Origin: Spirosoma aerolatum
Lineage (GTDB): Bacteria; Bacteroidota; Bacteroidia; Cytophagales; Spirosomataceae
Reading direction: 5' to 3'
NCBI RefSeq assembly: GCF_002056795.1
Contig: NZ_CP020104.1
Coordinates: forward strand, 2,863,001-2,927,000
DNA length: 64,000 bases
Shown: piece by piece, positions 26,890-61,728 of the stretch
Layout of the letters: the number at the start of each line of letters is the position of its first letter
Numbering within the stretch: position 1 is the stretch's first letter
The notes under the pieces: model-generated
Database searches by the model: none
What the model was told of the DNA's origin: nothing
Seen by the model: only the letters and a program-made list of their open reading frames with translations
Program-made: the position numbers and the translations under genes

Positions 26890-26899
26890 GTAAGGGTCG

Positions 26900-35504: not shown

Positions 35505-35522
35505 GAATCAATGGTACAACTA

Positions 35523-35568: not shown

Positions 35569-35575
35569 TGTCGAA

Positions 35576-36436: not shown

Positions 36437-36568
36437 GATTATTTTCACTTAAATAAACGATAGTACAAAGGTCAGCAGGTGCCCGCCAGGGAATGTAGTC
36501 TAATTGCGGTTCGTTGTAGTCAATTTGCGGGTTGGTTTCTGTGTCTATTCTTGAATCACCAAAAGGCA

Positions 36569-37477: not shown

Positions 37478-37483
37478 ATCGTA

Positions 37484-37843: not shown

Positions 37844-37845
37844 GA

Positions 37846-38625: not shown

Positions 38626-38966
38626 TTTTTGCCGTATTGGTTGATGAGACAAAGGTCTGCACGCAGCCAGACACCGACGTAGCCAAAGCGACTTTTGCTG
38701 TAGTCAAAAGTTAAATGGTAAATGTAACCCCTTCTGGAGAAGATATAGTTAACGGGAAGCTAGTTAGTAAGCTGCCGGGGGCGACAGGTTTTCTGTCGAC
38801 AAAACGGAGATGAACCAGCGATTTGTGAACTAGCTGGATTCTGGTGAGGAATTGCGAAATTCTACCCGCGATTAGTGTCTAAACCAGGCGCTCCCTAATT
38901 TTTATAACTTAACGAGGGTAAACAATCCAGCCTGAATGCCTAACTGGTAACAAGTTTCGTTGCGCA

Positions 38967-39055
38967 ATGGCCCGGATTCCTAACTTTCATACCATCACCG
39001 ATTTTTTTCGCGTTTACGGATTAGGGGAGCCCCTTCATCCTTACGTATGGATAAA
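38967..39055 (+). pseudogene. 5' remnant of an AraC-family gene of the same paralogue group
   Basis: ARIPNFHTITDFFRVYGLGE then PLHPYVWI aligns with the first residues of AraC paralogue C (IKTITEFHHLRELPKPKHPL then ISI) and paralogue A. Similarity stops after about 30 codons, some 30 bp before the palindrome at 39086. No later part of the gene is present. It is on the plus strand, opposite to the intact copies. Confidence 0.7.
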
Positions 39056-39085
39056 TAGAACCTGTGTAGATGTTCGTGCCAGTAG

Positions 39086-39178
39086 CCTTTTTGTCATGCC
39101 GAGGAACGAGGCATTTTTGGACTCTGATTATTCATCGGCGCTTCCGAAGATGCCTCGTTCCTCGGCATGACAAAAAGG
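39086..39178. repeat. TGTCATGCCGA palindrome (28-bp perfect arms)
   Basis: Arms 39086-39113 and 39151-39178 (CCTTTTTGTCATGCCGAGGA...) are exact complements. Sits between the AraC remnant and the 3' end of AraC paralogue C. Confidence 0.95.
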
Positions 39179-39210
39179 TTGAATAGCCTCTACACAACCA
39201 TCGATCGACC

Positions 39211-40134
39211 TTAGTTAAACCGCTCCCGAAATTCCAATGGGCTTTGGTGGGTCTTGCTTTTGAATAATCGGCTGAAGGACTGCGGCTGTTCGAACCCCAG
39301 TTCATAGGCGATTTCTGAAACCGACAGATGAGTGGTGGATAGGCGTTCTTTCGCTTTTTCGATCACCTTTTCGTGGATCATTTGCTGCGTCGATTGGCCG
39401 GTCAGTTGTTTCAGCAGACTACGCAGGTAACCGGGCGAAACGTGCAGATTTTCTGCAATATACTGCACCGAAGGCAGCCCTTGCAGCATGAGCTTTTCGC
39501 TGTTGATATACTCGTTCAGGATAATTTCCAGCCGCTCCAGAATCTCGTGGTTTACCTTTTGGCGGGTAATAAACTGTCGCTGGTAGAAACGGTCGGAGTA
39601 GTGCAGCAGCGTTTCCAGCTGCGATACAATGATGGACTGACTAAACGCATCGATCCTGTCCTGGTATTCGTCGTCGATGATGCGGATGATCTGGTTCATT
39701 TTCTGCTCTTCAGCTTCCGACAAAAACAGCGCTTCGTTGACCGTGTAGTCGAAAAAAGCGTACTTCTTACTGGTCGATGCCAGCGAGGTATTCCACAGAA
39801 AATCGGGATGGATCAGGAGCATCCAGCCAGACGGTCCTCGGGTATCTTCATCGAACTGAACGCTGAACACCTGGTTTGGGGCCATGAAAAACATCACGCC
39901 ATCGTTGAAATCGTACTGATACGTTTGCTGGCCGTATTTGTACGTATGGTTCATTCCCCGCTTCAGCGAAATAGTATAAAAGTCGAACACCAGGTGTTCA
40001 ACGCCTTTTCCCAGCCGTTTTTTAAACGTATCAAAATGAACAATACTGATGAGTGGATGCTTCGGCTTCGGTAGCTCCCGCAAGTGGTGAAACTCGGTAA
40101 TGGTCTTGATCCGGTGAGGCCCCAGGCTGTTCAT
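39211..40134 (-). CDS. AraC-family regulator (paralogue C)
   Basis: 307 residues. Sensor half as in paralogues A and B (YGQQTYQYDFNDGVMFFMAP, WMLLIHPDFLWNTSLASTS, FFDYTVNEALFLSEAEEQ), then a linker RLEIILNEYINSE and the double helix-turn-helix (VQYIAENLHVSPGYLRSLLK, LSVSEIAYELGFEQPQSFSR). It is the closest intact relative of the broken paralogue B. It follows the epimerase-like SDR gene on the same strand after a palindrome; it may control that gene. Ligand unknown. Confidence 0.93.
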   Translation of the reverse strand: MNSLGPHRIKTITEFHHLRELPKPKHPLISIVHFDTFKKRLGKGVEHLVFDFYTISLKRGMNHTYKYGQQTYQYDFNDGVMFFMAPNQVFSVQFDEDTRGPSGWMLLIHPDFLWNTSLASTSKKYAFFDYTVNEALFLSEAEEQKMNQIIRIIDDEYQDRIDAFSQSIIVSQLETLLHYSDRFYQRQFITRQKVNHEILERLEIILNEYINSEKLMLQGLPSVQYIAENLHVSPGYLRSLLKQLTGQSTQQMIHEKVIEKAKERLSTTHLSVSEIAYELGFEQPQSFSRLFKSKTHQSPLEFRERFN

Positions 40135-46924: not shown

Positions 46925-48343
46925 ATGAGCGTAAAAACAGGTACCCCCATCTCTTTAGGTGTTATTATTGGAAACCGGGACTTCTTCCCCGACAAACTCG
47001 TTGGCGAGTGCCGCTCCGATCTGCTGGACGTTTTTCAGAAAGTGGGCGTCAATCCCATTATGCTGGATGAAACGGCTACCAAACTGGGTGGTGTTGAAAC
47101 GTTTCAGGAAGCGCAGAAATGTGCCGAACTGTTTCGCAAACATGCCGACACGATTATGGGCGTTCTGGTTGTTCTGCCCAACTTCGGGGATGAAAAAGGT
47201 GTAGCCGAAACCCTGAAACTTGCTCGACTGGATGTGCCCGTGTTAATTCAGGCGTATCCCGATGATCTGAGTCGAATGGATGTAGCCCGTCGGCGGGATG
47301 CGTGGTGTGGCAAAATTTCAGTTTGTAACAACCTTTACCAATTCGGGATCAACTACTCGCTGACTACCAAGCACGTTGTCCACCCATCCGACCCCAGCTT
47401 TGAAGCCGACCTGAAAAACTTTATGGCGGTATGCCGGGTCGTAAAAGGGCTTCGGAATGTTCGGATTGGGGCCGTTGGCGCACGTCCGGGAGCCTTTAAT
47501 ACAGTTCGGTACAGTGAGAAAATCCTCCAGCGTAACGGGATTTCGGTAGTGACTATCGACCTGTCGCATATTCTGGGCAATGCCAATAAACTGACGGCTG
47601 CCGATCAGTCGGTAAAAGATCGACTTGACGCCATCAAAGCCTATACGCCCACGGGCCGCACGCCCGATGATAAACTGATACAGATTGCTAAGCTGGACGT
47701 AGTGCTGAACGATTTCATGCAGGAACACGCCCTGGACGCTACGGCCATTCAATGCTGGACCTCGCTTCAGCAAAACTACGGTTGTAACGTCTGTACCAGC
47801 ATGAGCATCATGAGCGAGAATATGCTCCCCAGTGCCTGCGAGGTCGATGTAACGGGCACACTCAGCATGTATGCCATGCAACTGGCTTCGGGTTCACCCA
47901 GCGCCCTGGTCGACTGGAACAACAACTATGCTGACGACGAAAACAAATGCGTGCTGTTCCACTGCGGCAACTGGGCCAAGTCGTTCCTGCCCGACATCGA
48001 AATCAGTACGGCCCCCATTCTCGGTACAACCGTAGGCGAAGAAAATACCTATGGGGCGTTGGCCGGTCGTACCCCCGCTAACCCGCTGACCTATGGACGC
48101 ATAAGCACCGATGACCCGAAAGGGGTAATGAAAGCCTACATCGGCGAAGGCGTTCTGACCAACGATCCGTTGAACACGTTCGGCAACCGGGCGGTGGCGC
48201 AGATCGATAACCTACAAGGGCTGATGCAGTACGTCTGTCGAAACGGGTTCGAACACCATGTCGTTATGAATGCGTCCAAAACTGCCGGAATTCTGGAGGA
48301 AGCCATGCGCAACTACATGGGCTGGGACGTATACAAGCATTGA
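46925..48343 (+). CDS. L-fucose/L-arabinose isomerase-family sugar isomerase
   Basis: 472 residues. The fold and metal site of the FucI/AraA superfamily are visible: Glu306 in LPSACEVDVTGT, Asp330 in ALVDWNNNY and His444/His445 in FEHHVVMN as third ligand. N-terminal GVIIGNRDFFPDKLVGE and MGVLVVLPNFGDEKGVAE are typical of the shorter FucI-like branch. It should interconvert an aldose and a ketose in the cytoplasm. True FucI is about 590 residues and AraA about 500, so the substrate is open. First gene of the plus-strand sugar locus. Confidence 0.88.
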   Translation: MSVKTGTPISLGVIIGNRDFFPDKLVGECRSDLLDVFQKVGVNPIMLDETATKLGGVETFQEAQKCAELFRKHADTIMGVLVVLPNFGDEKGVAETLKLARLDVPVLIQAYPDDLSRMDVARRRDAWCGKISVCNNLYQFGINYSLTTKHVVHPSDPSFEADLKNFMAVCRVVKGLRNVRIGAVGARPGAFNTVRYSEKILQRNGISVVTIDLSHILGNANKLTAADQSVKDRLDAIKAYTPTGRTPDDKLIQIAKLDVVLNDFMQEHALDATAIQCWTSLQQNYGCNVCTSMSIMSENMLPSACEVDVTGTLSMYAMQLASGSPSALVDWNNNYADDENKCVLFHCGNWAKSFLPDIEISTAPILGTTVGEENTYGALAGRTPANPLTYGRISTDDPKGVMKAYIGEGVLTNDPLNTFGNRAVAQIDNLQGLMQYVCRNGFEHHVVMNASKTAGILEEAMRNYMGWDVYKH

Positions 48344-48382
48344 TCGTACTTGCCTGATGCCCCCCCTCTTAACCGCTATACA

Positions 48383-49558
48383 ATGAAACCTACTCTAACC
48401 CTTACTGCGCTGATCGGCCTGATGTACGTTGGGCTAATTGCTGGTTCGTGGGCGCAGCAACGCCCAAATCCTGTAGTGTCGCCCGAAATACGGCCCGATA
48501 ACTCGGTGATTTTTCGCATTAAAGCACCCAATGCTAAATCGGTCCGATTGTTTGGGACCTGGCTGAAGGATTTACGGAATACCATCGAGATGACGCCTAA
48601 AGATTCGAGTCTGTTCGAAACGAAGGTGGGACCATTGCCGGCCGATATGTATGAGTACCGCTTTATTGTCGATGGAATTTCTATTCTCGACCCCGTCAAT
48701 ACCATTGCTACCCGCGACGGCTCGTATATCGAAAGTCGGCTGATGTTGCCAGGGCCGCTAACACAACTCTATGATGTACAGCCGGTGCCGCATGGAGTTT
48801 TGTCGGCCGTTTGGTACCCCTCGCCGACAATAGGGATGGATCGACGGATGGAGATTTACACCCCACCCGGCTACGAGAAAAGTGGGAAAAAATATCCGGT
48901 GCTGTATCTGTTTCATGGGGCCGGTGGTGACGAAGAGGGCTGGGTCAGCCGGGGGCGGACTAACTATATTCTGGATAACCTGATCGCGGCTGGCAAGGCA
49001 GAACCGATGATTGTTGTGATAACGAATGGCGTGCCCAGTGTGGCGGCTGCTCCGGGCGAGCGACCCGCTTTTGCCAACGCGGCTACCAACAGCCCGTCGG
49101 GTGTTCAGGCGATGACTAGCGGAAAGTTTGAAGCCAGTCTGATGAAGGATGTGATTCCATTCGTTGAAGCAAACTATCGGGTTATCGCAGACCCGGCACA
49201 CCGGGCGATTGCCGGTCTGTCGATGGGCGGTTATCATACGCAGCAGATTACCAATGCCAACCCTGGCACATTTAGTTATATCGGTGTGATGAGCATGGGC
49301 CTTTTCGACGGGCCAAATGCCCGGAACTACAATAAGGAGGAGCATATCAAACAACTCAACGCACTGAAACAGGCTAAACCCAAACTCTACTGGATTGGCT
49401 GCGGGAAAGATGACTTCCTGTATGCTAGCGTCACAAAGCTACGGGCTTTGTACGATCAGATCGGCTTACCCTACACCTATCGGGAAAGTGAAGGTGGCCA
49501 TACGTGGGTTAACTGGCGGCTGTATCTAACGGAATTAGCGCCTAAGCTTTTCAAATAG
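48383..49558 (+). CDS. Secreted esterase D/feruloyl-esterase-like protein with N-terminal beta domain
   Basis: 391 residues from ATG 48383 (signal peptide to SWAQQ). Residues 35-125 form a CBM48/early-set beta domain (DNSVIFRIKAPNAKSVRLFG then EYRFIVDG). The catalytic alpha/beta domain has KYPVLYLFHGAGGDEEGWVS, nucleophile Ser280 in AGLSMGGYH, Asp in IGCGKDDFLY and His373 in EGGHTW. This layout is that of enterochelin-esterase-like and xylan feruloyl or acetyl esterases from Bacteroidota. It would remove ester groups from a glycan outside the cytoplasm. 39 bp after the isomerase, so same transcript. Confidence 0.9.
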   Translation: MKPTLTLTALIGLMYVGLIAGSWAQQRPNPVVSPEIRPDNSVIFRIKAPNAKSVRLFGTWLKDLRNTIEMTPKDSSLFETKVGPLPADMYEYRFIVDGISILDPVNTIATRDGSYIESRLMLPGPLTQLYDVQPVPHGVLSAVWYPSPTIGMDRRMEIYTPPGYEKSGKKYPVLYLFHGAGGDEEGWVSRGRTNYILDNLIAAGKAEPMIVVITNGVPSVAAAPGERPAFANAATNSPSGVQAMTSGKFEASLMKDVIPFVEANYRVIADPAHRAIAGLSMGGYHTQQITNANPGTFSYIGVMSMGLFDGPNARNYNKEEHIKQLNALKQAKPKLYWIGCGKDDFLYASVTKLRALYDQIGLPYTYRESEGGHTWVNWRLYLTELAPKLFK

Positions 49559-49629
49559 TCCCGTTACCTACTAACTCCAAAGCGATCAGGGTTGATTAAT
49601 ACGGTACGAAATAAGTGATTTTAATAGGT

Positions 49630-50439
49630 ATGACTATCAGTGAATTAGCGCAGAAATCGGTGCAATACCGCCGAACGATACTGAAATATATTGTAGGGGC
49701 AAATGCCGGTCATACGGGGGGGAGTTTGTCCTGTATCGACATCCTGAATGTACTCTACAACAACGTTCTGAATGTTAGCCCCGAAACCGCCAAATCGCCT
49801 GACCGCGATCGATACATTCAGAGTAAAGGGCATACGGTTGAGGCCCTTTACGTAGTGCTGGCCGACCGGGGTTTCTTCCCCGAATCGGATCTGGAAACGC
49901 TTTGCCGCTACAAATCGCACTACATCGGACATCCAACCAAAAAAATTGCCGGTATCGAGCAGAATACAGGATCGCTTGGGCATGGGCTATCGCTGAGTGT
50001 TGGTACGGCCATTTCAGCTAAACTGGATGAAAAACCATTTCGGGTCTTTACGTTGCTGGGTGATGGGGAATTACCCGAAGGATCAAACTGGGAAGCGGCA
50101 CTGCTGGCGGCTCAGTATAAGCTCGATAACCTCTGCGCCATCGTCGATAAAAATGGCCTTCAAATCACGGCACCCACTGCCGACGTGTGTAGCACCGACC
50201 CTCTCGATAAAAAATTTGATGCGTTTGGCTGGGCTGTCCGGGAAATTGACGGGCATGATTTCGGCCAACTGATCGACGCGTTTAATGAATTACCGTTCGA
50301 ACCCGGCAAGCCCAGTGTGATCATTGCCCATACCATAAAAGGTAAGGGTGTCAGCTACATGGAAAACCAGCTCAAGTGGCACCACGGTGTACCCAATAAA
50401 GAACAGTACGAGCAGGCGCTGGTGGAATTGAGTGAATGA
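49630..50439 (+). CDS. Transketolase-type enzyme, N-terminal (TPP pyrophosphate-binding) subunit
   Basis: 269 residues from ATG 49630; a GTG at 49615 is in frame. TPP signature GDGELPEGSNWEAALLAAQY followed by KLDNLCAIVDKN is intact, as are SKGHTVEALY, GSLGHGLSLSVGTA and HTIKGKGVSYME. It pairs with the C-terminal subunit at 51776. Split transketolases of this size act on ketose phosphates or in apulose phosphate and other specialised pathways. Here it should cleave the ketose phosphate formed by the isomerase and kinase of the locus; substrate is inference. Confidence 0.93.
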   Translation: MTISELAQKSVQYRRTILKYIVGANAGHTGGSLSCIDILNVLYNNVLNVSPETAKSPDRDRYIQSKGHTVEALYVVLADRGFFPESDLETLCRYKSHYIGHPTKKIAGIEQNTGSLGHGLSLSVGTAISAKLDEKPFRVFTLLGDGELPEGSNWEAALLAAQYKLDNLCAIVDKNGLQITAPTADVCSTDPLDKKFDAFGWAVREIDGHDFGQLIDAFNELPFEPGKPSVIIAHTIKGKGVSYMENQLKWHHGVPNKEQYEQALVELSE

Positions 50440-50505
50440 GCAATTGATGAATAAAAAACCGACCAGTAGACCGCTGAACGTTCTCGTTTTACGCTTGATT
50501 AACGT

Positions 50506-50594
50506 GTTTTTGTCATTTCGACCGTAGGGAGAAATCTCAAATTTCCATTATCAATCAGCTTGGGATTTCTCCCTACGGTCGAAATGACAAAAAC
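50506..50594. repeat. TGTCATTTCGA palindrome (35-bp arms)
   Basis: Arms 50506-50540 and 50560-50594 pair with one mismatch. Lies between the transketolase N-subunit gene and the nucleoside hydrolase gene. Confidence 0.95.
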
Positions 50595-50638
50595 GAGTTT
50601 AACCGAAACTTGTCAAATACATTAAACAAGTAGACTGT

Positions 50639-51664
50639 ATGATTTTTTTTCGAAGACTTACCGGCCTGAGCTTGATCCTCGGCCTGATAGTCCAATTAAC
50701 TGTCTTTGGGCAGTCGAAAGGATTGGCGGGTGTGGAGCCTCGAATGCGGGTCATTGTTGACAACGATTTTAGTGGTGATCCTGACGGACTATTTCAACTG
50801 GCTCATTTGCTGATGTCGCCCTCGGTAGAAATTCGGGCTATTATCGGCTCTCATCTCCATGTAAACGATGGGTTTGATCGTTCGAAGACCCAGGCCGATA
50901 ATGCGGCTAAAAAAGCAAAGGAAGTGCTCCAGGCCATGAATGTGACGAAGGCTATTCCTGTCTTTGCCGGATCGAATACGGCGATGGTGAACGACAGTAC
51001 GCCCGTTAAAAATGAAGCTGTCAGTTTCATCATTCAGGAAGCCTTACGGACCGATACTAAAACGCCACTTTACGTGGTTTGCGGAGCAGGACTCACTGAA
51101 ATCGCGTCGGCTGCCCTGACCGATTCGCGGATTGCCGACAAACTGACACTCATCTGGATTGGTGGCCCTGAATACAGTGATCTGGCTCTTCCGCCACCGG
51201 GTTATTCGGAAGTTGAGTACAACCTGAACATCGATCAGGCAGCAGCACGAGTCGTATTTAACCGGTCGGCCTTGCGTTTGTGGCAAATCCCGCGAAATGT
51301 GTATCGACAGTGCCTGTTGTCGTATGCCCAATTGCTGACGAAGGTGAAGCCACAGGGCAAAATTGGCGCTTACCTGAGTGAAACCCTGGAGGTCCTAATG
51401 GATCGTATTCAGAAGTTTATCAACATTGGTGAAACCTACATTCTGGGCGATAGTCCGCTGGTGCTGCTTACAGCGCTACAGTCGTCGTTTGAGCCCGACC
51501 CCTCGTCGAGTCAGTACGTTGTTCGGCAGGCACCCCGCATCAATCAGGCAGGAACCTATGTCCACAACCACGCTGGTAGGCCGATTCGGGTGTATACCCA
51601 ACTGGATACGAACCTGATGTTTGCTGATTTTTTCGCCAAGCTAGAGCTATTGAATAGGCATTAG
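50639..51664 (+). CDS. Secreted nucleoside hydrolase-family protein
   Basis: 341 residues with a signal peptide ending VFGQ. The metal-binding start VIVDNDFSGDPDGLFQLAHL corresponds to the DxDxGxDD motif of inosine-uridine hydrolases, with some replacement. Further family landmarks: VVCGAGLTEIASAALTDSRI, IWIGGPEYSD (as IGG.E), YNLNIDQAAARVVF, and a C-terminal LGDSPLVLLTAL. Nucleoside hydrolases split N-glycosidic bonds of ribosides. Signal peptide and position between two transketolase genes suggest an envelope sugar-releasing role. No direct evidence for nucleosides as substrate. Confidence 0.88.
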   Translation: MIFFRRLTGLSLILGLIVQLTVFGQSKGLAGVEPRMRVIVDNDFSGDPDGLFQLAHLLMSPSVEIRAIIGSHLHVNDGFDRSKTQADNAAKKAKEVLQAMNVTKAIPVFAGSNTAMVNDSTPVKNEAVSFIIQEALRTDTKTPLYVVCGAGLTEIASAALTDSRIADKLTLIWIGGPEYSDLALPPPGYSEVEYNLNIDQAAARVVFNRSALRLWQIPRNVYRQCLLSYAQLLTKVKPQGKIGAYLSETLEVLMDRIQKFINIGETYILGDSPLVLLTALQSSFEPDPSSSQYVVRQAPRINQAGTYVHNHAGRPIRVYTQLDTNLMFADFFAKLELLNRH

Positions 51665-51692
51665 GGACAGAAGGCTAAGTTACGTTCAATGA

Positions 51693-51757
51693 ACCGCGAG
51701 GACGCAAAGATGCAAGGGTATAAAACTTTAACAATCAATTCTTTGCGTCCTCGCGGT
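51693..51757. repeat. Dyad repeat of the ACCGCGAGGACGC family (18-bp perfect arms)
   Basis: ACCGCGAGGACGCAAAGA (51693-51710) and its exact complement (51740-51757). Related to 20607-20677. Lies directly before the second transketolase gene. Confidence 0.93.
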
Positions 51758-51775
51758 GAGAAATAAAATACAACC

Positions 51776-52756
51776 ATGGGAGAAGTAAGTACAGTAGTCG
51801 ATAAAAAAGCCCTTCCAGACGTGGACCGGGCCAATCTGGATGTATTTTCGAATACGCTCCAGGAACTGGCCAGTACCGACCGGCAAATTCTGGTGGTGAC
51901 CAGCGATTCGCGGGGTTCGGGTAAACTGGGGCCATTCGGACAGAAGTACCCAGCACAGCACATCGAAATCGGCATTGCTGAACAAAACCTGGTGGGAGTT
52001 GCCGCTGGTCTGGCTTCAACGGGTAAGAAGGTATTTGCCGTTTCGCCCGCTTGTTTCCTGACGGCACGGTCGTTCGAGCAGATCAAAACCGACGTGGCCT
52101 ACTCCGATAATCCGGTAAAACTGATCGGCATAAGCGCCGGGGTGAGCTATGGGGCTTTGGGATCGACCCACCACAGCCTACACGATTTTGCGGCCTTGCG
52201 GGCGGTTCATAACCTGATGGTGGTTGCCCCCGCCGATAATTTCGAGACCGAACAGGCTATCCGGCAAGCGGCCGAACTCGACCATCCGATTTACATTCGA
52301 TTTGGCAAAAAGCCCATGCCCTTGCTATCGGAAGCGAATCAGGCGTTTGCATTTGGTAAAGGGCGAATCATCAACCAGGGCGACGATCTGGTACTGATCG
52401 CAACTGGCGAAACGGTCTATCCGGCTCTGCTGGCGGCTCATAAACTGGAAGCCCTGCACGACATCAAGACAACGGTAATCAGCATGCATACTATCAAACC
52501 ACTGGATTATGATCTACTGGCGACAGTTGCGGCCAAAGGATGTCCCATCCTGACGGTGGAAGAACATAGTGTATTCGGAGGGTTGGGCGAAGCCTGTGCG
52601 TCTTTTCTGATCCAGAATGGTTTTCGTAATCGGTTCAGAATCATGGGTATTCCTGATGAATACACGGTTACAGGCTCGCAGATTGAAATTTTCAACCATT
52701 ACGGTTTATCCGAAGAAGGCATTACGAACGAAGCACAGATCTTGTTGGATCTGTAG
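51776..52756 (+). CDS. Transketolase-type enzyme, C-terminal subunit
   Basis: 326 residues. Pyrimidine-binding domain with the catalytic Glu motif HIEIGIAEQNLVGVAAGLAS, then FLTARSFEQIKTDVAYSDN, GSTHHSLHDFAALRAV, and the C-terminal ligand-side domain (LIATGETVYPALLAAH, ILTVEEHSVFGGLGEACASF). It completes the split transketolase with the gene at 49630. About 1.3 kb separates the halves, occupied by a nucleoside hydrolase. The stop codon lies within a dyad repeat (52753-52828). Confidence 0.93.
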   Translation: MGEVSTVVDKKALPDVDRANLDVFSNTLQELASTDRQILVVTSDSRGSGKLGPFGQKYPAQHIEIGIAEQNLVGVAAGLASTGKKVFAVSPACFLTARSFEQIKTDVAYSDNPVKLIGISAGVSYGALGSTHHSLHDFAALRAVHNLMVVAPADNFETEQAIRQAAELDHPIYIRFGKKPMPLLSEANQAFAFGKGRIINQGDDLVLIATGETVYPALLAAHKLEALHDIKTTVISMHTIKPLDYDLLATVAAKGCPILTVEEHSVFGGLGEACASFLIQNGFRNRFRIMGIPDEYTVTGSQIEIFNHYGLSEEGITNEAQILLDL

Positions 52757-52828
52757 AGACGCCATACCTGGCGTCTCATTGGCGACAGCAACCATCCGGT
52801 CAGGAGACGCGAGGTATCGCGTCTCTAC
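52753..52828. repeat. GTAGAGACGC dyad repeat containing a stop codon
   Basis: Arms 52753-52777 and 52804-52828 pair with three mismatches over 25 bp. The left arm supplies the TAG that ends the transketolase C-subunit gene. Confidence 0.93.
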
Positions 52829-52847
52829 AAATTATCCTAAACCATAC

Positions 52848-54287
52848 ATGAAACATATTCTTTGCTTAATCGCTCTATGCCTGTTGGCGAGTTTACCTTC
52901 GTCCAGCCATGGCCAGTCACCGAAAAATAAACAGCGGGTACTGATTCTGACCGACATTGAAAATGAACCGGATGATTCGGAATCGCTGGTTCGCCTGCTC
53001 ACCTATGCCAATCAACTGGACATTGAAGGGTTGGTGGCGACAACCTCCATTCACCTGCAAAAACGGGTAGCTCCCGAAACCATTCATCGGATTGTGGATG
53101 CCTACGGGAAGGTGCAACCCAATTTGCTGAAACATGAACCAGGTTACCCAACGGCGCAGGCGCTGAAAGCCCTTATTAAGAAAGGATTGCCCGTGTATGG
53201 CATGGGTGGAGTGGGCGACGGTAAAGACTCAGAAGGATCGTCGTGGATAATCCGGCAACTGGAAAAGCCCGACAGTCGACCTCTATGGGTGTCGGCATGG
53301 GGGGGCGTCAATACGCTGGCACAGGCCCTCTGGACCATTCAGAAGAGCCGAGCGCCAGAGCAGGCGGAACAGCTTTACCGCAAACTTCGCGTATATACCA
53401 TTTCGGATCAGGACGATAGTGGCCCCTGGATTCGTAAGACCTTTCCAAGCGTGTTTTATGTCGTCAGTCCCGGTTATGGTTATGAATTTGCTACCTGGCG
53501 CGGTATCAACACCAACGAACCCGGCACGCGCCCGGAGTATGTCAGTGATGCGTGGTTAGCCGAAAACATTCAACAGGGGCATGGGCCACTAGGCGCGATG
53601 TATCCCGACGTGGCCTTTGGTATGGAAGGGGATACACCCTCTTTTCTGAATCTGATCCCTAATGGACTGAATGCACCAGAGCATCCCGACTGGGGTGGTT
53701 GGGGAGGACGGTATGTTCTGCAACAGCCTAGACTAGTGCCCAGTCGGAACAAGCCCGCCAGCGCACCCGCCGAAGAGCCTGAAACGCGACCCATCTGGAC
53801 CAATGCGGCCGATTCGGTCTTAACCCCAAGAACCTTTATGACAACTCCTTCAACCAGTGGGCCAAAGCCAGCAAAAAGCACGATGGCTACCATCTGGCGT
53901 TGGCGTACTGAATTTCAGAATGATTTTGCCGCCCGGATGGACTGGTGTACCAAATCGTACAAGGAAGCGAATCACCCACCTGTGCCCCGTTTGTCGCATC
54001 CCGAAAATCTGACCGTGAAATCGGGAGAGATGTTTTACCTGCGGGCGTCCGACTCTACCGACCCCGACGGCGATTCGATGAGTTTTCGTTGGATGCAATA
54101 TCCCGAAGTGGGAACGTACCAGGGTGTTATTTTATACGAAAATTTTGTCACGAACATCTACGAAGCTCGCCCAATCGCTCCTAAAGTAACCAGTCCGCAG
54201 ACCATTCATTTCATCCTGAAAGTGACCGACAAAGGCACACCCGCCTTAACGCGGTACAAACGAGTCATTGTTACCGTTGTTCCGTAG
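52848..54287 (+). CDS. Secreted DUF1593 (nucleoside-hydrolase-like) protein, copy 1
   Basis: 479 residues from ATG 52848 with signal peptide to SSHGQ. DUF1593 signature: [20 protein letters not shown] (Asp/Glu metal site), [55 protein letters not shown]-terminal beta domain ([20 protein letters not shown] and [13 protein letters not shown]) follows. The catalytic domain is related to nucleoside hydrolases; some members are cellulose-binding. About 25 residues before ATIWRWR differ strongly from copy 2 and read better in another frame (see findings). Likely periplasmic or surface glycosidase of unknown specificity. Confidence 0.88.
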
Positions 54288-54312
54288 CGTGAACCCAATA
54301 CGACTAAACCTC

Positions 54313-55725
54313 ATGAAAGCTGCTTATCTAGTTATCTGGCTCCTGCTGCTCGGACTGCCAACTCTGCCAAGTCAGGCTCAACAAGCCGGGCAAAAATTAC
54401 GGGTGCTGGTGCTGACGGATATCGAAAATGAACCTGATGATGCCCAGTCGATGGTTCGTTTCCTGACGTATGCCAATCAATGGGATGTAGAGGGGCTGAT
54501 TGCCACTACCTCGGTTCATCAGAAAGATCGGGTGGCTCCGGAGCGGATCAGACAGATTGTAACGGCCTACGGGAAGGTCCGGTCGAATTTATTGCTGCAC
54601 GAAAAAGGCTATCCCGAAACGCAGTACCTGACCAGTGTCATCAAGTCGGGTTACCCTAATTTCGGCATGGGTGCCGTTGGGCCGGGGAAAGATTCGGAAG
54701 GCTCGGAATGGATTATTTCGGTTGTCGATAAAAACGATGATCGACCTGTCTGGATTCCGGTGTGGGGAGGAGCCAACTGTCTGGCGCAGGCGCTCTGGAA
54801 AGTCCGGCAAACGCGTGCGCCCGACGATGTCGAGAAATTTGTGGCCAAACTCCGGGTCTATACCATTTCCGACCAGGACGATACGGGCCCCTGGCTTCGG
54901 AAAACCTTTCCGAATCTGTTTTACATTGCCAGCCCCGGTTTTCATGCCGGGGGCGCCTATCATCAGGCTACATGGAGCGGAATCAGTGGCGATAAATTTC
55001 ACGGGCGGTTCCAGGGGGCAGATTTTAGTCTGGTCGATAACCCCTGGCTTGACGAAAACATCCGTAAAAATCACGGGGCGCTGGGGGCCGAACATCCGTT
55101 TACAAAATTCCTGATGGAAGGCGATACACCGACGTTTTTGTTTCTGATCGACAATGGCTTAAGCGACCCTGAACATCCGAATTATGGCAGTTGGGGTGGC
55201 CGTTACGAGTTCTATACACCCCGTATGCGCAAGTGGTTTTACGAGCCCGAAACCCGCCCGTTCTGGTCCGATGTCGAGGATGAAGTGATGGGTGTAGACA
55301 GTGGTTGGTACACCAGTAATAAAGCAACGATCTGGCGGTGGCGGAAAGCGTATCAACACGATTTTGCTGCCCGCATCGACTGGACTATCAAGCCCTACAA
55401 AGAGGCCAATCATCCGCCTATTGCCAAATTAGGTCATCCAAATCAGGTGCGGGCAAAAAGCGGTGAAAAGGTTATGCTGAGCGCAGACGGCTCTACGGAC
55501 CCTGATGGTAATCCATTGACTTACGAATGGATTTATTACCGTGAACCGGGTACGTTCGAAAGTAGTCGGGCGTTGGAGATACAGGATAAACTGAAAAAAA
55601 ATGCCTTCATCATGGCACCAAGCGTGACAAAGCCCGAAACATTTCACGTTATCCTGGCCGTGACTGATACCGGAACACCGTCATTGACTCGATACCAGCG
55701 CGTTATCGTAACGGTAATGCCGTAG
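54313..55725 (+). CDS. Secreted DUF1593 (nucleoside-hydrolase-like) protein, copy 2
   Basis: 470 residues from ATG 54313, signal peptide to SQAQQ. Same layout as copy 1 25 bp upstream: [66 protein letters not shown], then [20 protein letters not shown] and a PKD/Ig-like C-terminal domain ([18 protein letters not shown]). Overall about half of residues match copy 1, so an old tandem duplication. Substrate unknown; possibly a different linkage than copy 1. Same transcript. Confidence 0.9.
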
Positions 55726-55727
55726 CA

Positions 55728-55810
55728 TTTTGTCATTCCGACGATAGGAGGAATCTCAAACTTGACTATTACTCAGACTTGAGATTCCTCCTATCGTCGG
55801 AATGACAAAA
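55728..55810. repeat. TGTCATTCCGA palindrome (32-bp perfect arms)
   Basis: Arms 55728-55759 and 55779-55810 are exact complements. It starts 3 bp past the stop of DUF1593 copy 2 and lies before the ABC transporter genes. Confidence 0.96.
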
Positions 55811-55822
55811 AAACTAAACTAT

Positions 55823-56791
55823 ATGAATAATTTACTCACATACAGTCGCTTATTCGTCCTGCTACTCCTGCTGCTGCTGGCAGGAAGCTGTACGAGTAAA
55901 ACGGACGCTAATGGCCCAAAGAAGGTAGCCGTCATCGTGTCGACGCTCAACAATCCGTGGTTTGTGGTACTGGCCGAAACAGCGGCTGCCGAAGCCAAAG
56001 CCTTAGGGTACGAAACCAAAATCTTCGATTCGCAGAACAACACGGCCCTCGAAAGCGATCACTTTGAGAATGCCATCGTGTCGGGATTCAGCGCTATTCT
56101 GCTGAATCCGACTGATTCCGACGGCTCCATTGTCAACGCACGCAAAGCTATTGAAGCCGGTATACCCGTGTTCTGTATGGACCGGGAAGTCAATTCGCCC
56201 AGGGCGGCAACCTGCCAGATTCTGTCCGACAACTATTCGGGCTGCGTGGCTATTGGCAAGTACTTCGTTCAGACCTTACGCGCCAAAGCGGCAAACACAC
56301 CGATCAACTACGTTGAGATTCTGGGATTAGTGGGTGACAACAACACCTGGAACCGCTCGAAAGGCTTTCATAGCGTGGTTGATCAGTACAAGAATTTTAA
56401 GATGGTGGCCCAGCAAAGCGCCGATTTCGACCGGAATAAGGCAATGGAAGTACTGGAGTCCATTCTTCAGGCCCATCCCGACATCAATGCGGTTTTCTGC
56501 GGAAACGATGCGATGGCTATGGGTGCGTATCAGGCGTTGGTAGCGGCTGGCAAAGCTAACGATGTGGGTGTGTTTGGCTTCGACGGGGCCGACGATGTGA
56601 TGAATTCCATCCGCGATGGAAAGATCAAGGCAACCGGACTGCAATCGCCCCAGACGATGGCCAAAACAGCCGCCCAGTTTGCTGATGAGTACTTCAAGGG
56701 TAAACGCGACTTCGCTAAAAAGATACCCGTGGCCGTCGAGCTGATTGACCAGGAGAACATCAAGGATTATCCGGCCACTAAAAAATCCTGA
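55823..56791 (+). CDS. Ribose-type sugar-binding lipoprotein of an ABC importer
   Basis: 322 residues from ATG 55823; an upstream frame start at 55802 falls in the palindrome edge. Lipoprotein signal LLLLLLLAGSC. The RbsB-type periplasmic-binding fold is clear: VAVIVSTLNNPWFVVLAETA, FSAILLNPTDSDGSIVNARK, GIPVFCMDREV, then DINAVFCGNDAMAMGAYQAL and DVGVFGFDGADDVMNSIRDG. Closest described group: D-ribose/D-allose/D-apiose-type binding proteins (type B, PF13407). It would deliver a monosaccharide to the permease encoded at 59153. Exact sugar unknown. Confidence 0.93.
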   Translation: MNNLLTYSRLFVLLLLLLLAGSCTSKTDANGPKKVAVIVSTLNNPWFVVLAETAAAEAKALGYETKIFDSQNNTALESDHFENAIVSGFSAILLNPTDSDGSIVNARKAIEAGIPVFCMDREVNSPRAATCQILSDNYSGCVAIGKYFVQTLRAKAANTPINYVEILGLVGDNNTWNRSKGFHSVVDQYKNFKMVAQQSADFDRNKAMEVLESILQAHPDINAVFCGNDAMAMGAYQALVAAGKANDVGVFGFDGADDVMNSIRDGKIKATGLQSPQTMAKTAAQFADEYFKGKRDFAKKIPVAVELIDQENIKDYPATKKS

Positions 56792-56797
56792 CCAACG

Positions 56798-57562
56798 ATG
56801 CCGAAAAACGCACTGAAATACACCATGCTACTCGTTCTGCTGGCGGTTGTAGCTTATAACTCGGTCTATTTCAAACGACTGGACGAAGTAAAAGCATCGA
56901 CAGGGCCCAATGCTGGTCAGCCATTTGACGCGGCTTCCTACGCCGGTACATTCTGGACCAACAAGCTCCTGCCCACAACAGCAAAAGCTACTGAGTTCGA
57001 CGTGCTTATTTCATTGTTAAAAACCGATAAGGAGAAGGCATTCGAGACCTACTCGCACGCACTGGGCATTGGCAACATCCGCTATTTTCTGGTGAAAGGA
57101 ACGGGCAACGTAACAGCTGTTGGCGACAACGACATCACCGTTTTACTGCCTTCAGGCAAATCGGTTAAGCTGGCGACGGAGTACATTTTCGGAAATGCCG
57201 CCCGCGATGCCTCCGGCCTGATCCAGATTACGGAATTCGATAATACAATGGACCTCAACAATGTATCGGCCGAACTGAATACGATTATCCGAAACAAGGT
57301 TGTGCCACCCCTGAAAGCAAACGCTAAACCGGGGGCAACAATCAACTTCGTCGGTGCCATCGAACTAAACAAAGCGCATTTGCATCTGGAGACTATAGAG
57401 GTGATTCCGATTGTGGTAAAGCTGGGTACAGGTAGCCAGGAGCGGGGGGTAAAGTCTCTGTCTATCAGCATAGGCCCTCTGCTCCACGCCCCATATTCCT
57501 TGCGCCTTGCTCCACACCCCACGCATCCTGCCCCCTGCACTCTGCATCCAAAACCATGTTAA
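56798..57562 (+). CDS. DUF2291-family protein of a sugar ABC system
   Basis: 254 residues. One N-terminal membrane helix (YTMLLVLLAVVAYNSVYF), then the DUF2291 domain (AASYAGTFWTNKLLPTTAKA, DVLISLLKTDKEKAFETYSH, VPPLKANAKPGATINFVGAI, and HLETIEVIPIVVKLG). DUF2291 proteins are found with ribose-type importers of Bacteroidota and related groups; their role is unknown. After residue 212 the tail (PLLHAPYSLRLAPHPTHPAP...) is low complexity and encoded by a pyrimidine-rich repeat-like stretch, probably a replaced C-terminus. The gene overlaps the next by 7 bp. Confidence 0.85.
   Translation: MPKNALKYTMLLVLLAVVAYNSVYFKRLDEVKASTGPNAGQPFDAASYAGTFWTNKLLPTTAKATEFDVLISLLKTDKEKAFETYSHALGIGNIRYFLVKGTGNVTAVGDNDITVLLPSGKSVKLATEYIFGNAARDASGLIQITEFDNTMDLNNVSAELNTIIRNKVVPPLKANAKPGATINFVGAIELNKAHLHLETIEVIPIVVKLGTGSQERGVKSLSISIGPLLHAPYSLRLAPHPTHPAPCTLHPKPC
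57475..57552 (+). repeat. CTCCACNCC-type pyrimidine-rich repeat forming a gene end
   Basis: CTGCTCCACGCCCCATATTCC, then CTTGCTCCACACCCCACGCATC and similar units, about 78 bp. It encodes the odd C-terminal tail of the DUF2291 protein. Confidence 0.6.
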
Positions 57563-59079
57563 TAGCCGAAAATATCACCAAACGATTTGCGGGTGTAACA
57601 GCGCTGGACGGGGTTTGTCTGGAGTTTCGGGCAGGCGCAGTAACCGCCGTAATCGGTGAGAACGGAGCCGGGAAATCCACGCTGATGAAAATTCTGTCGG
57701 GCGTTTACCCGGATTACGAAGGACAAATTCGGTTCAAGGGGGAGCTTGTTCGGTTCAACTCCATTCGCGATGCGCAGGCTTGTGGCATTGCTATTATCCA
57801 CCAGGAACTGAATCTGATTCCGTATCTGACTATCACGGAAAACATCTTTCTGGGTCGCGAAATCACCACGCGCTGGGGTACGCTCGACAAGAACGCGATG
57901 CGGATCAAAACGCAGGAGTTACTGGCCAGACTCAAACTGCCAATCGATCCTGAATCACGGGTGTCTGAACTGAAAGTGGGTCAGCAGCAGGTGGTTGAAA
58001 TGGCAAAAGCGTTGCTCGTTGAGTCGGACGTGATTATTATGGATGAGCCGACATCAGCGATCAGCGAGAGCGAGGTAGTGGTTCTGTTCACGATTATCGA
58101 CGATCTGCGGAAGGAAAACAAAGCTATTGTTTATATCTCACACAAACTGGACGAACTGTTTACCATTGCTGACCACTATGTTGTTCTACGTGATGGTAAA
58201 TCCATTGAATCGGGTAGTATGCACGGCATTGACCACGATACACTTATTCGGAAGATGGTGGGTCGCGACATTAATACGATTCGCCGGAAAACGACGGGTC
58301 AGGCTTTTGATCCGTTGCTGTCAGTCGAAAACCTGTGCCTGAAACACCCAACCCATGTGCAGGAAAATCAGCTTAAAAATATCTCGTTCAGCGTAGGGCG
58401 GGGTGAAGTGGTCGGGCTGTTTGGGCTGATGGGTGCCGGACGAACGGAGCTATTGGAATCTCTTTTTGGGCTTCATCCAAAGCGTTGTTCGGGAACCGTA
58501 TACCTCGATGGAAAGTCGATTCTGCCGAAAACTCCGGTCGATGCAATTCGGTTCGGCATGGCGCTAGTGCCAGAAGATCGCAAAAAAGACGGACTGGTGC
58601 TGGATATGGATGTACAAATGAACATCAGCCTGACCGCCCTCGAAAAAATTGAACAGGCTGGTTTGCTGAGTCAGGTTAAAGAAACCACGCTGGCCAAAAA
58701 ATACATAGCCGATTTACGGATTAAAACGCCTTCGGAAAGGCAGACAGCCAAAAATCTGAGTGGTGGTAATCAGCAGAAAATTGTCCTGTCGAAATGGCTG
58801 GCGACAAACCCAAAGTTGCTGATGCTCGACGAACCCACACGGGGTATCGACGTAAATGCCAAAAACGAAATTTACAAGCTCATTCTGCAATTGGCCGATG
58901 AAGGCATGGGGATTCTGGTGGTTTCGTCGGAACTGCCCGAAATCCTGGCCATTTCGGACCGGGTTCTGGTCATGAGCGAAGGCGTCATAACCGCCGACAT
59001 GGCCGTACAGGATGCATCGGAAGATGTAATCCTGAAGGCTGCAATACCAAAATCAATGAGTGAAAGAGTGAAAGAGTGA
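57556..59079 (+). CDS. Ribose-type ABC importer ATPase (two nucleotide-binding domains)
   Basis: 507 residues. First domain: Walker A GENGAGKSTLMKIL, signature VSELKVGQQQVVEMAKALL, Walker B VIIMDEPTSAISESE. Second domain lacks a canonical Walker A (GLMGAGRTELLESL) as is normal for RbsA/MglA proteins, with signature NLSGGNQQKIVLSKWL and Walker B LLMLDEPTRGID. It powers uptake with the permease at 59153 and the binding protein at 55823. The final residues SERVKE are encoded by a GAAAGAGTGA repeat. Confidence 0.95.
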   Translation: MLIAENITKRFAGVTALDGVCLEFRAGAVTAVIGENGAGKSTLMKILSGVYPDYEGQIRFKGELVRFNSIRDAQACGIAIIHQELNLIPYLTITENIFLGREITTRWGTLDKNAMRIKTQELLARLKLPIDPESRVSELKVGQQQVVEMAKALLVESDVIIMDEPTSAISESEVVVLFTIIDDLRKENKAIVYISHKLDELFTIADHYVVLRDGKSIESGSMHGIDHDTLIRKMVGRDINTIRRKTTGQAFDPLLSVENLCLKHPTHVQENQLKNISFSVGRGEVVGLFGLMGAGRTELLESLFGLHPKRCSGTVYLDGKSILPKTPVDAIRFGMALVPEDRKKDGLVLDMDVQMNISLTALEKIEQAGLLSQVKETTLAKKYIADLRIKTPSERQTAKNLSGGNQQKIVLSKWLATNPKLLMLDEPTRGIDVNAKNEIYKLILQLADEGMGILVVSSELPEILAISDRVLVMSEGVITADMAVQDASEDVILKAAIPKSMSERVKE

Positions 59080-59148
59080 TTGAGCGAAATGACTTTATTC
59101 ACTCTTTCACTCTTTCACTCTTTCACTCTTTCGCTCTTTCACCCTTTA
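59056..59148. repeat. GAAAGAGTGA inverted repeat at the ATPase gene end
   Basis: GAGTGAAAGAGTGAAAGAGTGATTGAGCGAAA (59057-59090) faces TTCACTCTTTCACTC repeated five times (59098-59148). The left side supplies the stop codon of the ATPase gene. The family also occurs at 12219-12342. Confidence 0.9.
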
Positions 59149-59152
59149 ACTT

Positions 59153-60133
59153 ATGCAGCTAACCGCAACTACCTACCGACCTTTCCTGACGCGATTCCAA
59201 TCGCTGATTGCTCTGTTTATTCTTTGCCTGGGAATCAGTCTTCTATCGGATAAATTCCTGACCGTAGCCAATTTCTGGAACGTACTCCGGCAGATTTCGG
59301 TCAATGTATGCATATCAACGGGCATGACGCTGGTAGTGCTGACAGCGGGTATAGACCTGTCAGTAGGTTCCGTTTTGGCTCTGTCGGGGGCAATTACGGC
59401 TGGCCTTCTGCGTAACGGTATTCCCATTCAGTCGGCCAATTTATACATTGGTTTTACTTTATTGGGAGCAATACTGGCTGGCATCCTGACGGGTTCGGCG
59501 CTGGGGTGGTTCAATGGCTGGGCTATTACACGCTTCAAATTGCCGCCCTTTGTAGCCACACTGGCGATGCTGACCATTGCCCGTGGCCTGACCATGCTCT
59601 GGACGGAAGGGTTTCCGATTACGGGCCTTGGCGACTCGTTTACGTTCCTGGGAACAGGCTGGTTTTTGGGTATTCCAGTTCCGGTCTGGTTATCGGGCCT
59701 TATTGTCACCACGGCCGTGCTGGTCACCAATAAAACCCGGTTAGGGCGCTATATCTACGCCATCGGTGGGAGCGAAAGCGCAGCCCGGTTGTCGGGCGTG
59801 AATATTGAAAGGATCAAAATAGCCGTATACACCATTGCCGGAGGATTAGCAGCTATTGGGGGCCTACTCGTAACCTCGCGACTGGATTCGGCCCAGCCCA
59901 ACGCCGGAACAAGTTATGAACTCGATTCCATAGCGGCAGTCGTCATTGGCGGAACCTCCCTTTCGGGTGGCCGGGGTAGTATACTCGGTACGGTGCAGGG
60001 CGCTATTATCATTGGTGTTCTGAACAACGGCCTGGTCCTTCTGAATGTATCACCTTTCTGGCAACAGGTCGTAAAAGGGTTCGTCATCCTGCTGGCCGTA
60101 ATCATCGATAAGCGAACAGAGAAAAATGAATAA
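59153..60133 (+). CDS. Ribose-type ABC importer permease
   Basis: 326 residues with about eight to ten membrane helices. Family landmarks: FWNVLRQISVNVCISTGMTL, VLTAGIDLSVGSVLALSGAI, WAITRFKLPPFVATLAMLTI, and the C-terminal IAAVVIGGTSLSGGRGSILG (coupling loop) then GTVQGAIIIGVLNNGLVLLN. These match RbsC-type permeases. Its last residues EKNE and stop come from a dyad repeat of the ATGAATAATG type. Transports the sugar bound by the lipoprotein at 55823. Confidence 0.95.
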   Translation: MQLTATTYRPFLTRFQSLIALFILCLGISLLSDKFLTVANFWNVLRQISVNVCISTGMTLVVLTAGIDLSVGSVLALSGAITAGLLRNGIPIQSANLYIGFTLLGAILAGILTGSALGWFNGWAITRFKLPPFVATLAMLTIARGLTMLWTEGFPITGLGDSFTFLGTGWFLGIPVPVWLSGLIVTTAVLVTNKTRLGRYIYAIGGSESAARLSGVNIERIKIAVYTIAGGLAAIGGLLVTSRLDSAQPNAGTSYELDSIAAVVIGGTSLSGGRGSILGTVQGAIIIGVLNNGLVLLNVSPFWQQVVKGFVILLAVIIDKRTEKNE

Positions 60134-60222
60134 TGTAAAATGAACAATGGATAATGTGATTGGGGAATCCGTCTATTCGCTTCATTATTCATTTTACGTT
60201 ATTCATTATCCATTATTCATTA
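60124..60222. repeat. ATGAATAATG dyad repeat at the permease gene end
   Basis: AATGAATAATGTAAAATGAA to GGATAATG on the left faces CATTATTCATTTTACGTTATTCATTATCCATTATTCATT (shortened here to its ends, 60183-60220) on the right. The left part carries the TAA that ends the permease gene. Confidence 0.85.
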
Positions 60223-60228
60223 AGTTAA

Positions 60229-61728
60229 ATGACCAATTCCTACATTCTGGCCATTGACCAGGGAACCAGCAGTACCAAAACGCTTTTGTTTGACCAGAAC
60301 GGGCAGGTAGTCGCGCGGGCTTCGGAGCCGTTGATAACCAACTATTTGGCCGATGGATTCGTTGAGCAGGGCCCGGAAGATTTATTCCGAAATGTACTCA
60401 TTTCGGTGGGAAAATGCATCGGGAGTTTTGCGGCTCAAGGCGGTGATCTAAAAGCTATCAGCGCCTGTGGTATTTCCAATCAGCGCGAAACATTTGTCGT
60501 TTGGGATGACACAGGTGTTCCACTCTATAATGCAATTGTCTGGCAATGTAAACGCTCTATTCAAGTCTGTGAGCGATTGAAAGCAGAAGGGCTGGAGCAA
60601 CGCATTCAGGAAAAAACCGGGCTATTTATTGACCCTTACTTTTCGGGAACCAAACTGATCTGGCTATACGAGAATGACGAGAAGGTTCGGCAGGCCGTCG
60701 ATGCCGGAAAGGCGTACTTTGGTACGGTCGATACGTGGCTGCTTTACAAACTGACCAACGGCCAGCACTACCTTACCGATTATACCAACGCATCCCGAAC
60801 GTTGTTTTTTAACCTGCACACGTTAAGCTGGGATCTGGAACTGCTCGCTGCGTTTGGGCTCTCGAAGCTGAATCTGCCTGAGCCCAAACCATCTTCGGCC
60901 TTTTTCGGAAAATCGAATTTCAATGGTTTATTTGATCATACCTTACCCATTACCAGCCTGATAGGCGATTCGCACGCGGCCGCCTTTGGCGAAGGTTGTT
61001 TTGCACCGGGAACGGCAAAAGCTACATTAGGAACGGGCTGCTCGATCATGATGAATATCGGAGAGGAGCCTATTACATCGCAACAGGGTATGGTTACAAC
61101 CATTTGCTGGAGCACTGAAGAGCGGCCGGGCCGACGTTCGGTAGACTATGCCCTGGAAGGGGTGATCGTCACCTGTGGCGCTACCATCGAATGGCTAAAA
61201 AACAGCTTGGGATTATTTGCCGAAAGCCGAGAAACAGAAGCGATGGCAATGGCTGTACCCGACAATGGTGGGGTGTATATCATTCCGGCATTTAGCGGAT
61301 TAGGGGCTCCTCACTGGCAAATGTCCCGCAAAGCGTCGATCTCCGGGCTGACGTTCGGTTCAACGAAAAATCATGTAGTCAGAGCGGCTCTGGAATCCAT
61401 TCCCTATCAGATCAACGATGTAATAGTAGCGATGGAGCAGGATACCGGAATAACGTTGAACGAACTGATGGTACACGGTGGAATCAGTGCCAATCAGTTT
61501 GTTGTACAGTTCCTGACTGATCTACTTGGGAAGCCGGTCGTTAACCGCGACATGCCTGATGTATCGGCTTTGGGAGCGGCTTATCTGGCTGGCCTGAAAA
61601 CCGGACTGTTTAAAAACCTAGATCATTTACAGACATTAAACGCGGGTAAAGTTTCCATAACGCCCAATGTCGAACGGTCGGCTGTAGAAAAAGCGTATGC
61701 AGGCTGGCAGGCTGCTCTCAAGGAATAA
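60229..61728 (+). CDS. FGGY-family carbohydrate kinase (GlpK-like with altered substrate pocket)
   Basis: 499 residues, close to glycerol kinase length. N-terminal ATP motif AIDQGTSSTKTLLFDQNGQV. Glycerol-contacting residues of GlpK are partly kept (NQRETFVVWDDTG with Arg-Glu, YNAIVWQCKRS with Trp, DPYFSGTKLIWL with Tyr), but the AGDQQAALFG segment is GDSHAAAFG, losing the Gln that contacts glycerol. The ATP-side motif ISGLTFG and MVHGGISANQFVVQFLTDLL are intact. A ketose or polyol other than glycerol is therefore the more likely substrate, in line with the isomerase and transketolase of the locus. Last gene of the cluster. Confidence 0.88.
   Translation: MTNSYILAIDQGTSSTKTLLFDQNGQVVARASEPLITNYLADGFVEQGPEDLFRNVLISVGKCIGSFAAQGGDLKAISACGISNQRETFVVWDDTGVPLYNAIVWQCKRSIQVCERLKAEGLEQRIQEKTGLFIDPYFSGTKLIWLYENDEKVRQAVDAGKAYFGTVDTWLLYKLTNGQHYLTDYTNASRTLFFNLHTLSWDLELLAAFGLSKLNLPEPKPSSAFFGKSNFNGLFDHTLPITSLIGDSHAAAFGEGCFAPGTAKATLGTGCSIMMNIGEEPITSQQGMVTTICWSTEERPGRRSVDYALEGVIVTCGATIEWLKNSLGLFAESRETEAMAMAVPDNGGVYIIPAFSGLGAPHWQMSRKASISGLTFGSTKNHVVRAALESIPYQINDVIVAMEQDTGITLNELMVHGGISANQFVVQFLTDLLGKPVVNRDMPDVSALGAAYLAGLKTGLFKNLDHLQTLNAGKVSITPNVERSAVEKAYAGWQAALKE

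Follow-up and report, generated by a model that had tools for sequence, protein, structure and literature searches.

In the described D-apiose pathway, apiose is isomerized to apulose, apulose is phosphorylated, and a transketolase reaction with glyceraldehyde 3-phosphate yields xylulose 5-phosphate and dihydroxyacetone phosphate. This non-oxidative (transketolase) pathway was reportedly worked out by Carter et al. in 2018, with ApsI, AplK, AptA and AptB and an ATP-binding cassette (ABC) importer. Here we analyze a 64,000-nt stretch of the Spirosoma aerolatum genome (the window), in which 12 consecutive genes, all on the + strand from 46925 to 61728, encode a candidate pathway of this kind. 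In PMC13001218, genes of Escherichia coli SE15 are the queries for D-apiose degradation, with aplK, aptA and aptB named alongside apsI, the D-apiose isomerase gene of Pectobacterium, and cluster-bearing Escherichia and E. coli strains grow on D-apiose. A first-pass annotation of the window had known of no described pathway with exactly this set of genes; for the core genes this was wrong, as a matching D-apiose cluster is linked to growth of E. coli on D-apiose (PMC13001218). We conclude that the locus is probably a D-apiose utilization operon, fed by a pectin degradation locus of the rhamnogalacturonan II (RG-II) type that lies 27–47 kb upstream. The core represents a pathway type already known, here in a Bacteroidota version tied to a pectin locus; what stands out is that DUF1593 and related proteins were recruited repeatedly.

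The core operon and its relatives

Pfam and NCBIfam scans recovered every gene of the first-pass annotation, in the same order and on one strand. First comes a FucI/AraA-type sugar isomerase, the candidate D-apiose isomerase (46925–48343; PF02952, E 2.8e-27). A split transketolase is encoded by an AptA-like N half (49615–50439; PF00456) and an AptB-like C half (51776–52756; PF02779 and PF02780). Farther downstream are an RbsB-type substrate-binding lipoprotein (SBP; 55802–56791), with a lipobox recognized by eye and ribose-type pocket residues, and an importer-associated DUF2291 protein (56798–57562; PF10054). Family scans identified the remaining three genes as the ATPase (57556–59079) and permease (59153–60133) of an ABC importer and a GlpK-like FGGY kinase (60229–61728), the candidate apulose kinase (AplK-like). 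This kinase is nearest glycerol kinase, yet falls below the TIGR01311 cut-off for GlpK equivalogs (552 versus 590 bits).

The transketolase N half found split transketolases among plasmid records, and the isomerase had 15 matching records. The best isomerase matches (54% identity) were from Klebsiella pneumoniae, Sodalis praecaptivus and Rahnella, inside AptAB-type clusters ordered SBP, DUF2291, ATPase, permease, regulator, AptA, AptB, isomerase and FGGY kinase, with one additional gene ahead of the regulator in two of the three. By its gene table, the E. coli SE15 cluster comprises transporter, kinase, regulator, AptAB and two oxidoreductases, without an isomerase. The transketolase N half is 49% identical to its counterpart in SE15 and 56% to that in Listeria, the C half 40% and 46%, respectively, and the FGGY kinase is 39% identical to the kinase of the SE15 apiose cluster. 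Judged by sequence, both halves of a putative apulose-4-phosphate transketolase (AptA plus AptB) and a putative FGGY apulose kinase (AplK) are present. Listeria carries isomerase, TkA, TkB and kinase genes with a phosphotransferase system (PTS) and a DUF4038 gene that clusters with PF13204 proteins. Monoglobus has the same four catabolic genes and a DUF5060 gene in a second PF13204-bearing cluster, both assignments being made through sequence clusters whose scanned member has PF13204.

A route of this shape could also serve sulfoquinovose or another sulfosugar, whose degradation can involve split transketolases. The isomerase does weakly match the sulfoquinovose isomerase model, but at 92.7 bits against a cut-off of 700, and its relatives sit in apiose-type clusters. 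We rejected this explanation as very improbable.

An isomerase alignment, run against named genomes, located 463 confirmed sites, of which the best 80 were kept as related loci. Their titles name Bacteroidota (names as read), except for one metagenome-assembled genome titled Williamsia. Neighboring genes were counted within ∼10 kb; 61 stretches were full length and 19 incomplete, and many stop short of the end of the operon. The isomerase gene was called in 79 of the 80, a longer opposite-strand frame having taken its place in the other. The transketolase N half was found in 76 loci, the C half in 73, the SBP in 68, the ATPase in 66, DUF2291 in 65, the permease in 59, the kinase in 56 and a DeoR regulator gene in 53. 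DeoR is usually encoded directly ahead of the isomerase, whereas no DeoR gene adjoins the isomerase of the window. The closest named isomerase loci are from Spirosoma, and 4 of 295 genomes of the window's class, its own counted, have the isomerase. These data show that the core (isomerase, split transketolase, GlpK-like kinase and RbsB-type importer with DUF2291) is a conserved Bacteroidota operon. The gene order conserved in the named loci bears out the earlier proposal of a single unit made up of isomerase, kinase, split transketolase and importer.

A pectin-type locus in the same window

The segment from 1 to 19880, on which the first-pass annotation was silent, contains a GH140-type apiosidase, a DeoR regulator, SusC and SusD, and GH127, GH43-type and GH2 enzymes. 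The GH140-type gene (3644–5062, − strand) matches PF13204 with E 9.6e-115 and 384 bits, against a cut-off of 26.5; in a genome-wide search, one of the PF13204 matches of this genome fell within the window, at 3932–4942 on the minus strand. Its product is 54–58% identical to its five best relatives, all of which adjoin the operon in related loci. Next to it, the DeoR gene (5337–6131, + strand), displaced from the isomerase, encodes a protein 92% identical to an operon-linked copy in a related locus. On the − strand are the GH43-type (BT_3657-like) gene (2745–3671; PF22847 above cut-off, PF04616 below), the GH2 gene (1–2748), which continues beyond the window edge, and genes for SusD (10578–12305), SusC (12343–15414) and GH127 (17739–19880), the last from a family also found beside the operon in two related loci. 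Because a GH140-type apiosidase and the operon's usual DeoR regulator occur in the same window, D-apiose is the most likely sugar. The first-pass annotation had offered a glycan-bound pentose, a branched sugar such as apiose, or a nucleoside-like riboside; apiose is now the best-supported of these, and the apiosidase likewise supports a glycan-bound starting compound.

The association extends to other genomes. A PF13204-type gene lies in the stretch of 13 of the 80 related loci, in some together with BT_1020-like and GH127 genes, and a GH140-type gene in 10 of the 61 full-length stretches. Genome-wide, PF13204 scored above cut-off in 48 of 50 genomes with the isomerase versus 19 of the 291 class genomes that lack it; the 50 represent a choice among the 80 loci, made largely for stretch length, and they are not phylogenetically independent.

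In the mechanism that we propose, the GH140-type enzyme, perhaps together with the exported DUF1593, nucleoside-hydrolase-like (NH) and esterase proteins encoded within the operon, would free apiose on the outer side of the inner membrane. The sugar would then be bound by the RbsB-type lipoprotein and imported through the ABC importer with DUF2291. The isomerase would convert it to apulose, the GlpK-like FGGY kinase would phosphorylate apulose, and the split transketolase would act on phosphorylated apulose and glyceraldehyde 3-phosphate to give xylulose 5-phosphate and dihydroxyacetone phosphate. Sequence and context establish the gene identities, the conservation of the operon, its resemblance to a cluster linked to growth on apiose, the presence of GH140 and DeoR in the window and the non-random linkage of DUF1593; we infer each of these reactions, the SBP ligand, and the activities of DUF1593 and NH. 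Pectin locus and apiose operon would then be parts of one region.

Several observations weigh against this assignment. The isomerase comparison extends to the Klebsiella, Sodalis and Rahnella genes (54%) only, and split transketolases of similar identity also occur outside apiose clusters, in Collinsella. Phylogeny and lifestyle both confound the counts of co-occurrence. The SBP keeps all seven polar residues that contact ribose, at positions taken from E. coli RbsB, and its aromatic set also agrees with that of Thermotoga maritima TM0958. This protein is its best structure match and binds ribose (PMC2630998). The SBP is 55–57% identical to the T. maritima ribose-binding protein over the part that aligns in a poor model (pLDDT 56.8; three sequences) that was used for structure entry titles only. 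Entry 5ibq, reported to hold an apiose ligand, was not among the titles for this model. The pocket polar residues are common to ribose-binding proteins and the SBPs of the Enterobacterales clusters, SE15 excepted. As they fail to separate ribose from apiose, the SBP does not decide between the two sugars, and the transporter may carry both.

These same features would suit riboside salvage, with NH and DUF1593 freeing D-ribose from extracellular nucleosides or ribosides for import and catabolism, the more so as the NH fold is that of ribohydrolases. Yet neither ribokinase nor RbsD is among the twelve operon genes, and ribose needs no dedicated isomerase, kinase and split transketolase. An NH gene is seen in only 7 of the 80 related loci, plus an eighth in which it runs across the stretch end, and the operon is found together with GH140 and pectin enzymes. 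The motifs also differ from the reference: the window DUF1593 proteins have Glu for the nucleoside-hydrolase Asp, and the Asp motif of NH is shifted. We regard salvage of this kind as improbable, and D-apiose as the better candidate.

Other features of the window were noted in passing. Besides the glycan genes and DeoR, the ten upstream genes scanned include those for a GNAT protein, an X-Pro peptidase-like protein and a 922-residue protein (7138–9906). The last has no Pfam match at E 1e-5 and has relatives of 58–81% identity in one related locus (L030) and in four Dyadobacter loci; it could be an uncharacterized pectin enzyme. Inside the GH127 gene is a perfect 15-base tandem repeat of 6.3 copies (19309–19403). 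Several copies of one family of ∼300 residues span 34566–40134, one of them apparently in two pieces (36569–37477), and the family is repeated in two related loci as well. The DUF2291 frame (254 aa) takes its last ∼45 residues from a C/T-rich stretch of repeated words (57430–57562); its relatives have a median length of 209 residues. Gene boundaries at 59055–59152, 60120–60228 and 26895–26992 contain intergenic hairpins of short repeated words, all different in sequence, whose RNA folding against shuffles gave z of –9.4, –5.5 and –7.0, respectively. A similar repeat at 12215–12290 does not fold (z –0.2).

DUF1593 and the other exported proteins

Interspersed with the core genes are those for four proteins with Sec signal peptides, as judged by eye. 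An esterase (48350–49558, Met start likely 48383; PF00756, E 9.5e-24) follows the isomerase, and NH (50639–51664; PF01156, E 1.5e-15; altered motif DNDFSGDPDG) separates the transketolase halves. Two DUF1593 proteins, a (open reading frame 52617–54287, Met start probably 52848; E 1.2e-112) and b (open reading frame 54268–55725, Met start probably 54313; E 3.1e-114), precede the SBP. DUF1593 is now named Sde182_NH-like (PF07632). In both proteins the PF07632 domain is full length (positions 1–268; 376 and 381 bits versus a cut-off of 26.8), and PF21027 is also complete. A frameshift in protein a was ruled out, as its alignment with the Spirosoma panaciterrae copy runs over the full length.

DUF1593 has the NH fold, in which D...DD and GD motifs are conserved. 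The metal motif of nucleoside hydrolases is D-x-D-x-x-x-D-D. The window DUF1593 proteins instead read D-x-E-x-E-P-D-D, and over 80 copies only the first and the last two Asp are invariant. NH also departs from the motif, with DNDFSGDPD, in which the last Asp is moved by one. To our knowledge, the DUF1593 family has one solved structure and no known activity; none of the PMC papers returned by a literature search on DUF1593 and related terms contains the word DUF1593.

Linkage of DUF1593 to the operon is not random. At least one DUF1593 gene lies in the stretch of 35 of the 80 loci (49 copies, fragments counted) and in 32 of the 61 full-length stretches; 7 of the 61 have NH, and 43 of the 80 loci have DUF1593 or a GH140-type gene. 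In 50 genomes, 27 loci hold 40 copies (fragments counted), whereas 0.29 would be expected were the 87 matches evenly spread. PF07632 scored above cut-off in 41 of the 50 isomerase genomes versus 14 of 291 class genomes lacking the isomerase, and in all 4 class genomes having it. T. maritima, in the control set, has a PF13204 match and no PF07632 match. The copies occupy many positions: 20 lie between the transketolase C half and the SBP, 6 between permease and kinase, 5 between isomerase and transketolase, 7 past the kinase, 5 divergently upstream and 6 elsewhere. In a tree of 80 of the 98 hits (rows under 300 aa and near-duplicates left out; copies 14–22 kb from the isomerase in one genome scored unlinked), made by a quick method, linkage status had to change 15 times, with at least 10 of the changes forced by supported branches, and linked copies fell in deep lineages of both halves. 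The linkage was therefore gained, or lost, many times. Broken DUF1593 copies were seen in or adjoining the operon in two loci (L030 and L138), which suggests turnover of these genes there.

Other counts speak against a fixed tie to the operon, and to apiose. No DUF1593 gene was found in 45 of the 80 stretches (19 of the 80 being short), so DUF1593 is dispensable. About half of the 87 matches lie outside the operon stretch, and two genomes (G065 and G110) have the operon with a DUF1593 match only elsewhere, not near it. DUF1593 also occurs in loci without apiose genes. Of 11 plasmid records with DUF1593, 6 were inspected and showed no annotated apiose genes in the stretch, plasmid gene tables being incomplete, which argues against a role confined to apiose. 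Neighbors there were GH65; glucuronate isomerase; GH115; two GH127-type genes with several esterases; and a rhamnosidase/PTS/GH1 set. NH relatives occur in 24 plasmid records; in the one inspected, the relative lies beside a GH1 gene. Elsewhere, unlinked DUF1593 genes adjoin GH28 or GH5, and one in a Sphingobacteriaceae genome has an apiose-type DeoR (83%), SusC/D and a PF13204 gene in its neighborhood. The esterase family occurs in 8 of the 80 loci; in five loci a different alpha/beta hydrolase follows the isomerase, the position of the window esterase. The first-pass annotation had inferred that the nucleoside-hydrolase-type trio releases the sugar in one pathway. These genes vary independently of the core and also occur without it, the very outcome that it had held to speak against a single pathway. 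A conserved core unit is supported; the NH-type genes are not a required part of it, and their place as an obligatory release step of one fixed pathway is not supported.

A regulatory tie was also considered. A T-rich direct-repeat motif, learned upstream of the operon in 79 loci with the window and two near kin excluded, has its two best window sites at the isomerase promoter and in the GH140–DeoR gap. In 30 of 300 trials, column-permuted motifs also scored this gap higher than any site other than those in the two promoters. At unlinked DUF1593 loci the top site was at the DUF1593 promoter in 3 of 18 cases versus a permuted mean of 2.6, and in genomes without the isomerase in 0 of 10. These controls, too, count against our interpretation, and an operator shared by the operon and the pectin locus or DUF1593 was rejected as not significant.

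What, then, might the exported proteins do? The most likely role of DUF1593 and NH is hydrolysis of apiofuranosyl (or other furanosyl) linkages. We tentatively suggest, at somewhat under even chances, that DUF1593 and its PF01156 partner are exported NH-fold glycosidases for apiofuranosyl linkages and a second enzymatic solution next to GH140, with DUF1593 lineages for different apiosides recruited into the apiose operon several times. We know of no activity in the nucleoside-hydrolase superfamily other than N-riboside hydrolysis; DUF1593 would be an O-glycosidase branch. Alternatively, and with about the same chance, GH140 alone frees apiose for the core, and DUF1593, NH and the esterase act on neighboring residues (acyl groups, other furanosides or uronosyl linkages). 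The apiosidase already in the window, the near-universal PF13204 in isomerase genomes, and DUF1593 genes near GH5, GH28, GH115, glucuronate isomerase or rhamnosidase elsewhere all fit such a division of labor. It accounts less well for several DUF1593 lineages repeatedly inserted within the apiose operon, between catabolic and transport genes; no other hydrolase cluster was seen in 10 or more loci. Apiose compounds are a testable candidate substrate for the widespread DUF1593 family; cleavage by DUF1593, if true, would be a new type of enzyme removing apiose from pectin or plant phenolics.

Comparison with known systems

The upstream locus shares SusC/SusD, GH140, GH127, GH43-type and GH2 genes with RG-II utilization loci of Bacteroidota, for which Bacteroides thetaiotaomicron provides the reference type. 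In contrast to such loci, it has no BT_1020-like gene among the ten scanned upstream genes (the full RG-II enzyme set was not searched), and an apiose catabolic operon lies in the same region. The window DUF1593 proteins are 9–15% identical to the nucleoside hydrolases RihA and IUNH and to the effector XopQ and, unlike these, are predicted to be exported and are sited in sugar loci. A member of the Sde182/PF07632 family from Saccharophagus degradans has a structure (PDB 2yhg); the window copies sit inside a sugar catabolic operon.

Against the D-apiose transketolase clusters, the window matches in its isomerase-type gene, FGGY kinase, split transketolase, RbsB-type SBP, DUF2291, ATPase and permease. 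Its SBP is nearest the T. maritima ribose protein, unlike the described apiose system. The DeoR gene is 41 kb away, whereas in the Enterobacterales clusters a sugar-binding regulator adjoins the genes. Only the window, of these, has exported DUF1593, NH and esterase genes within the operon.

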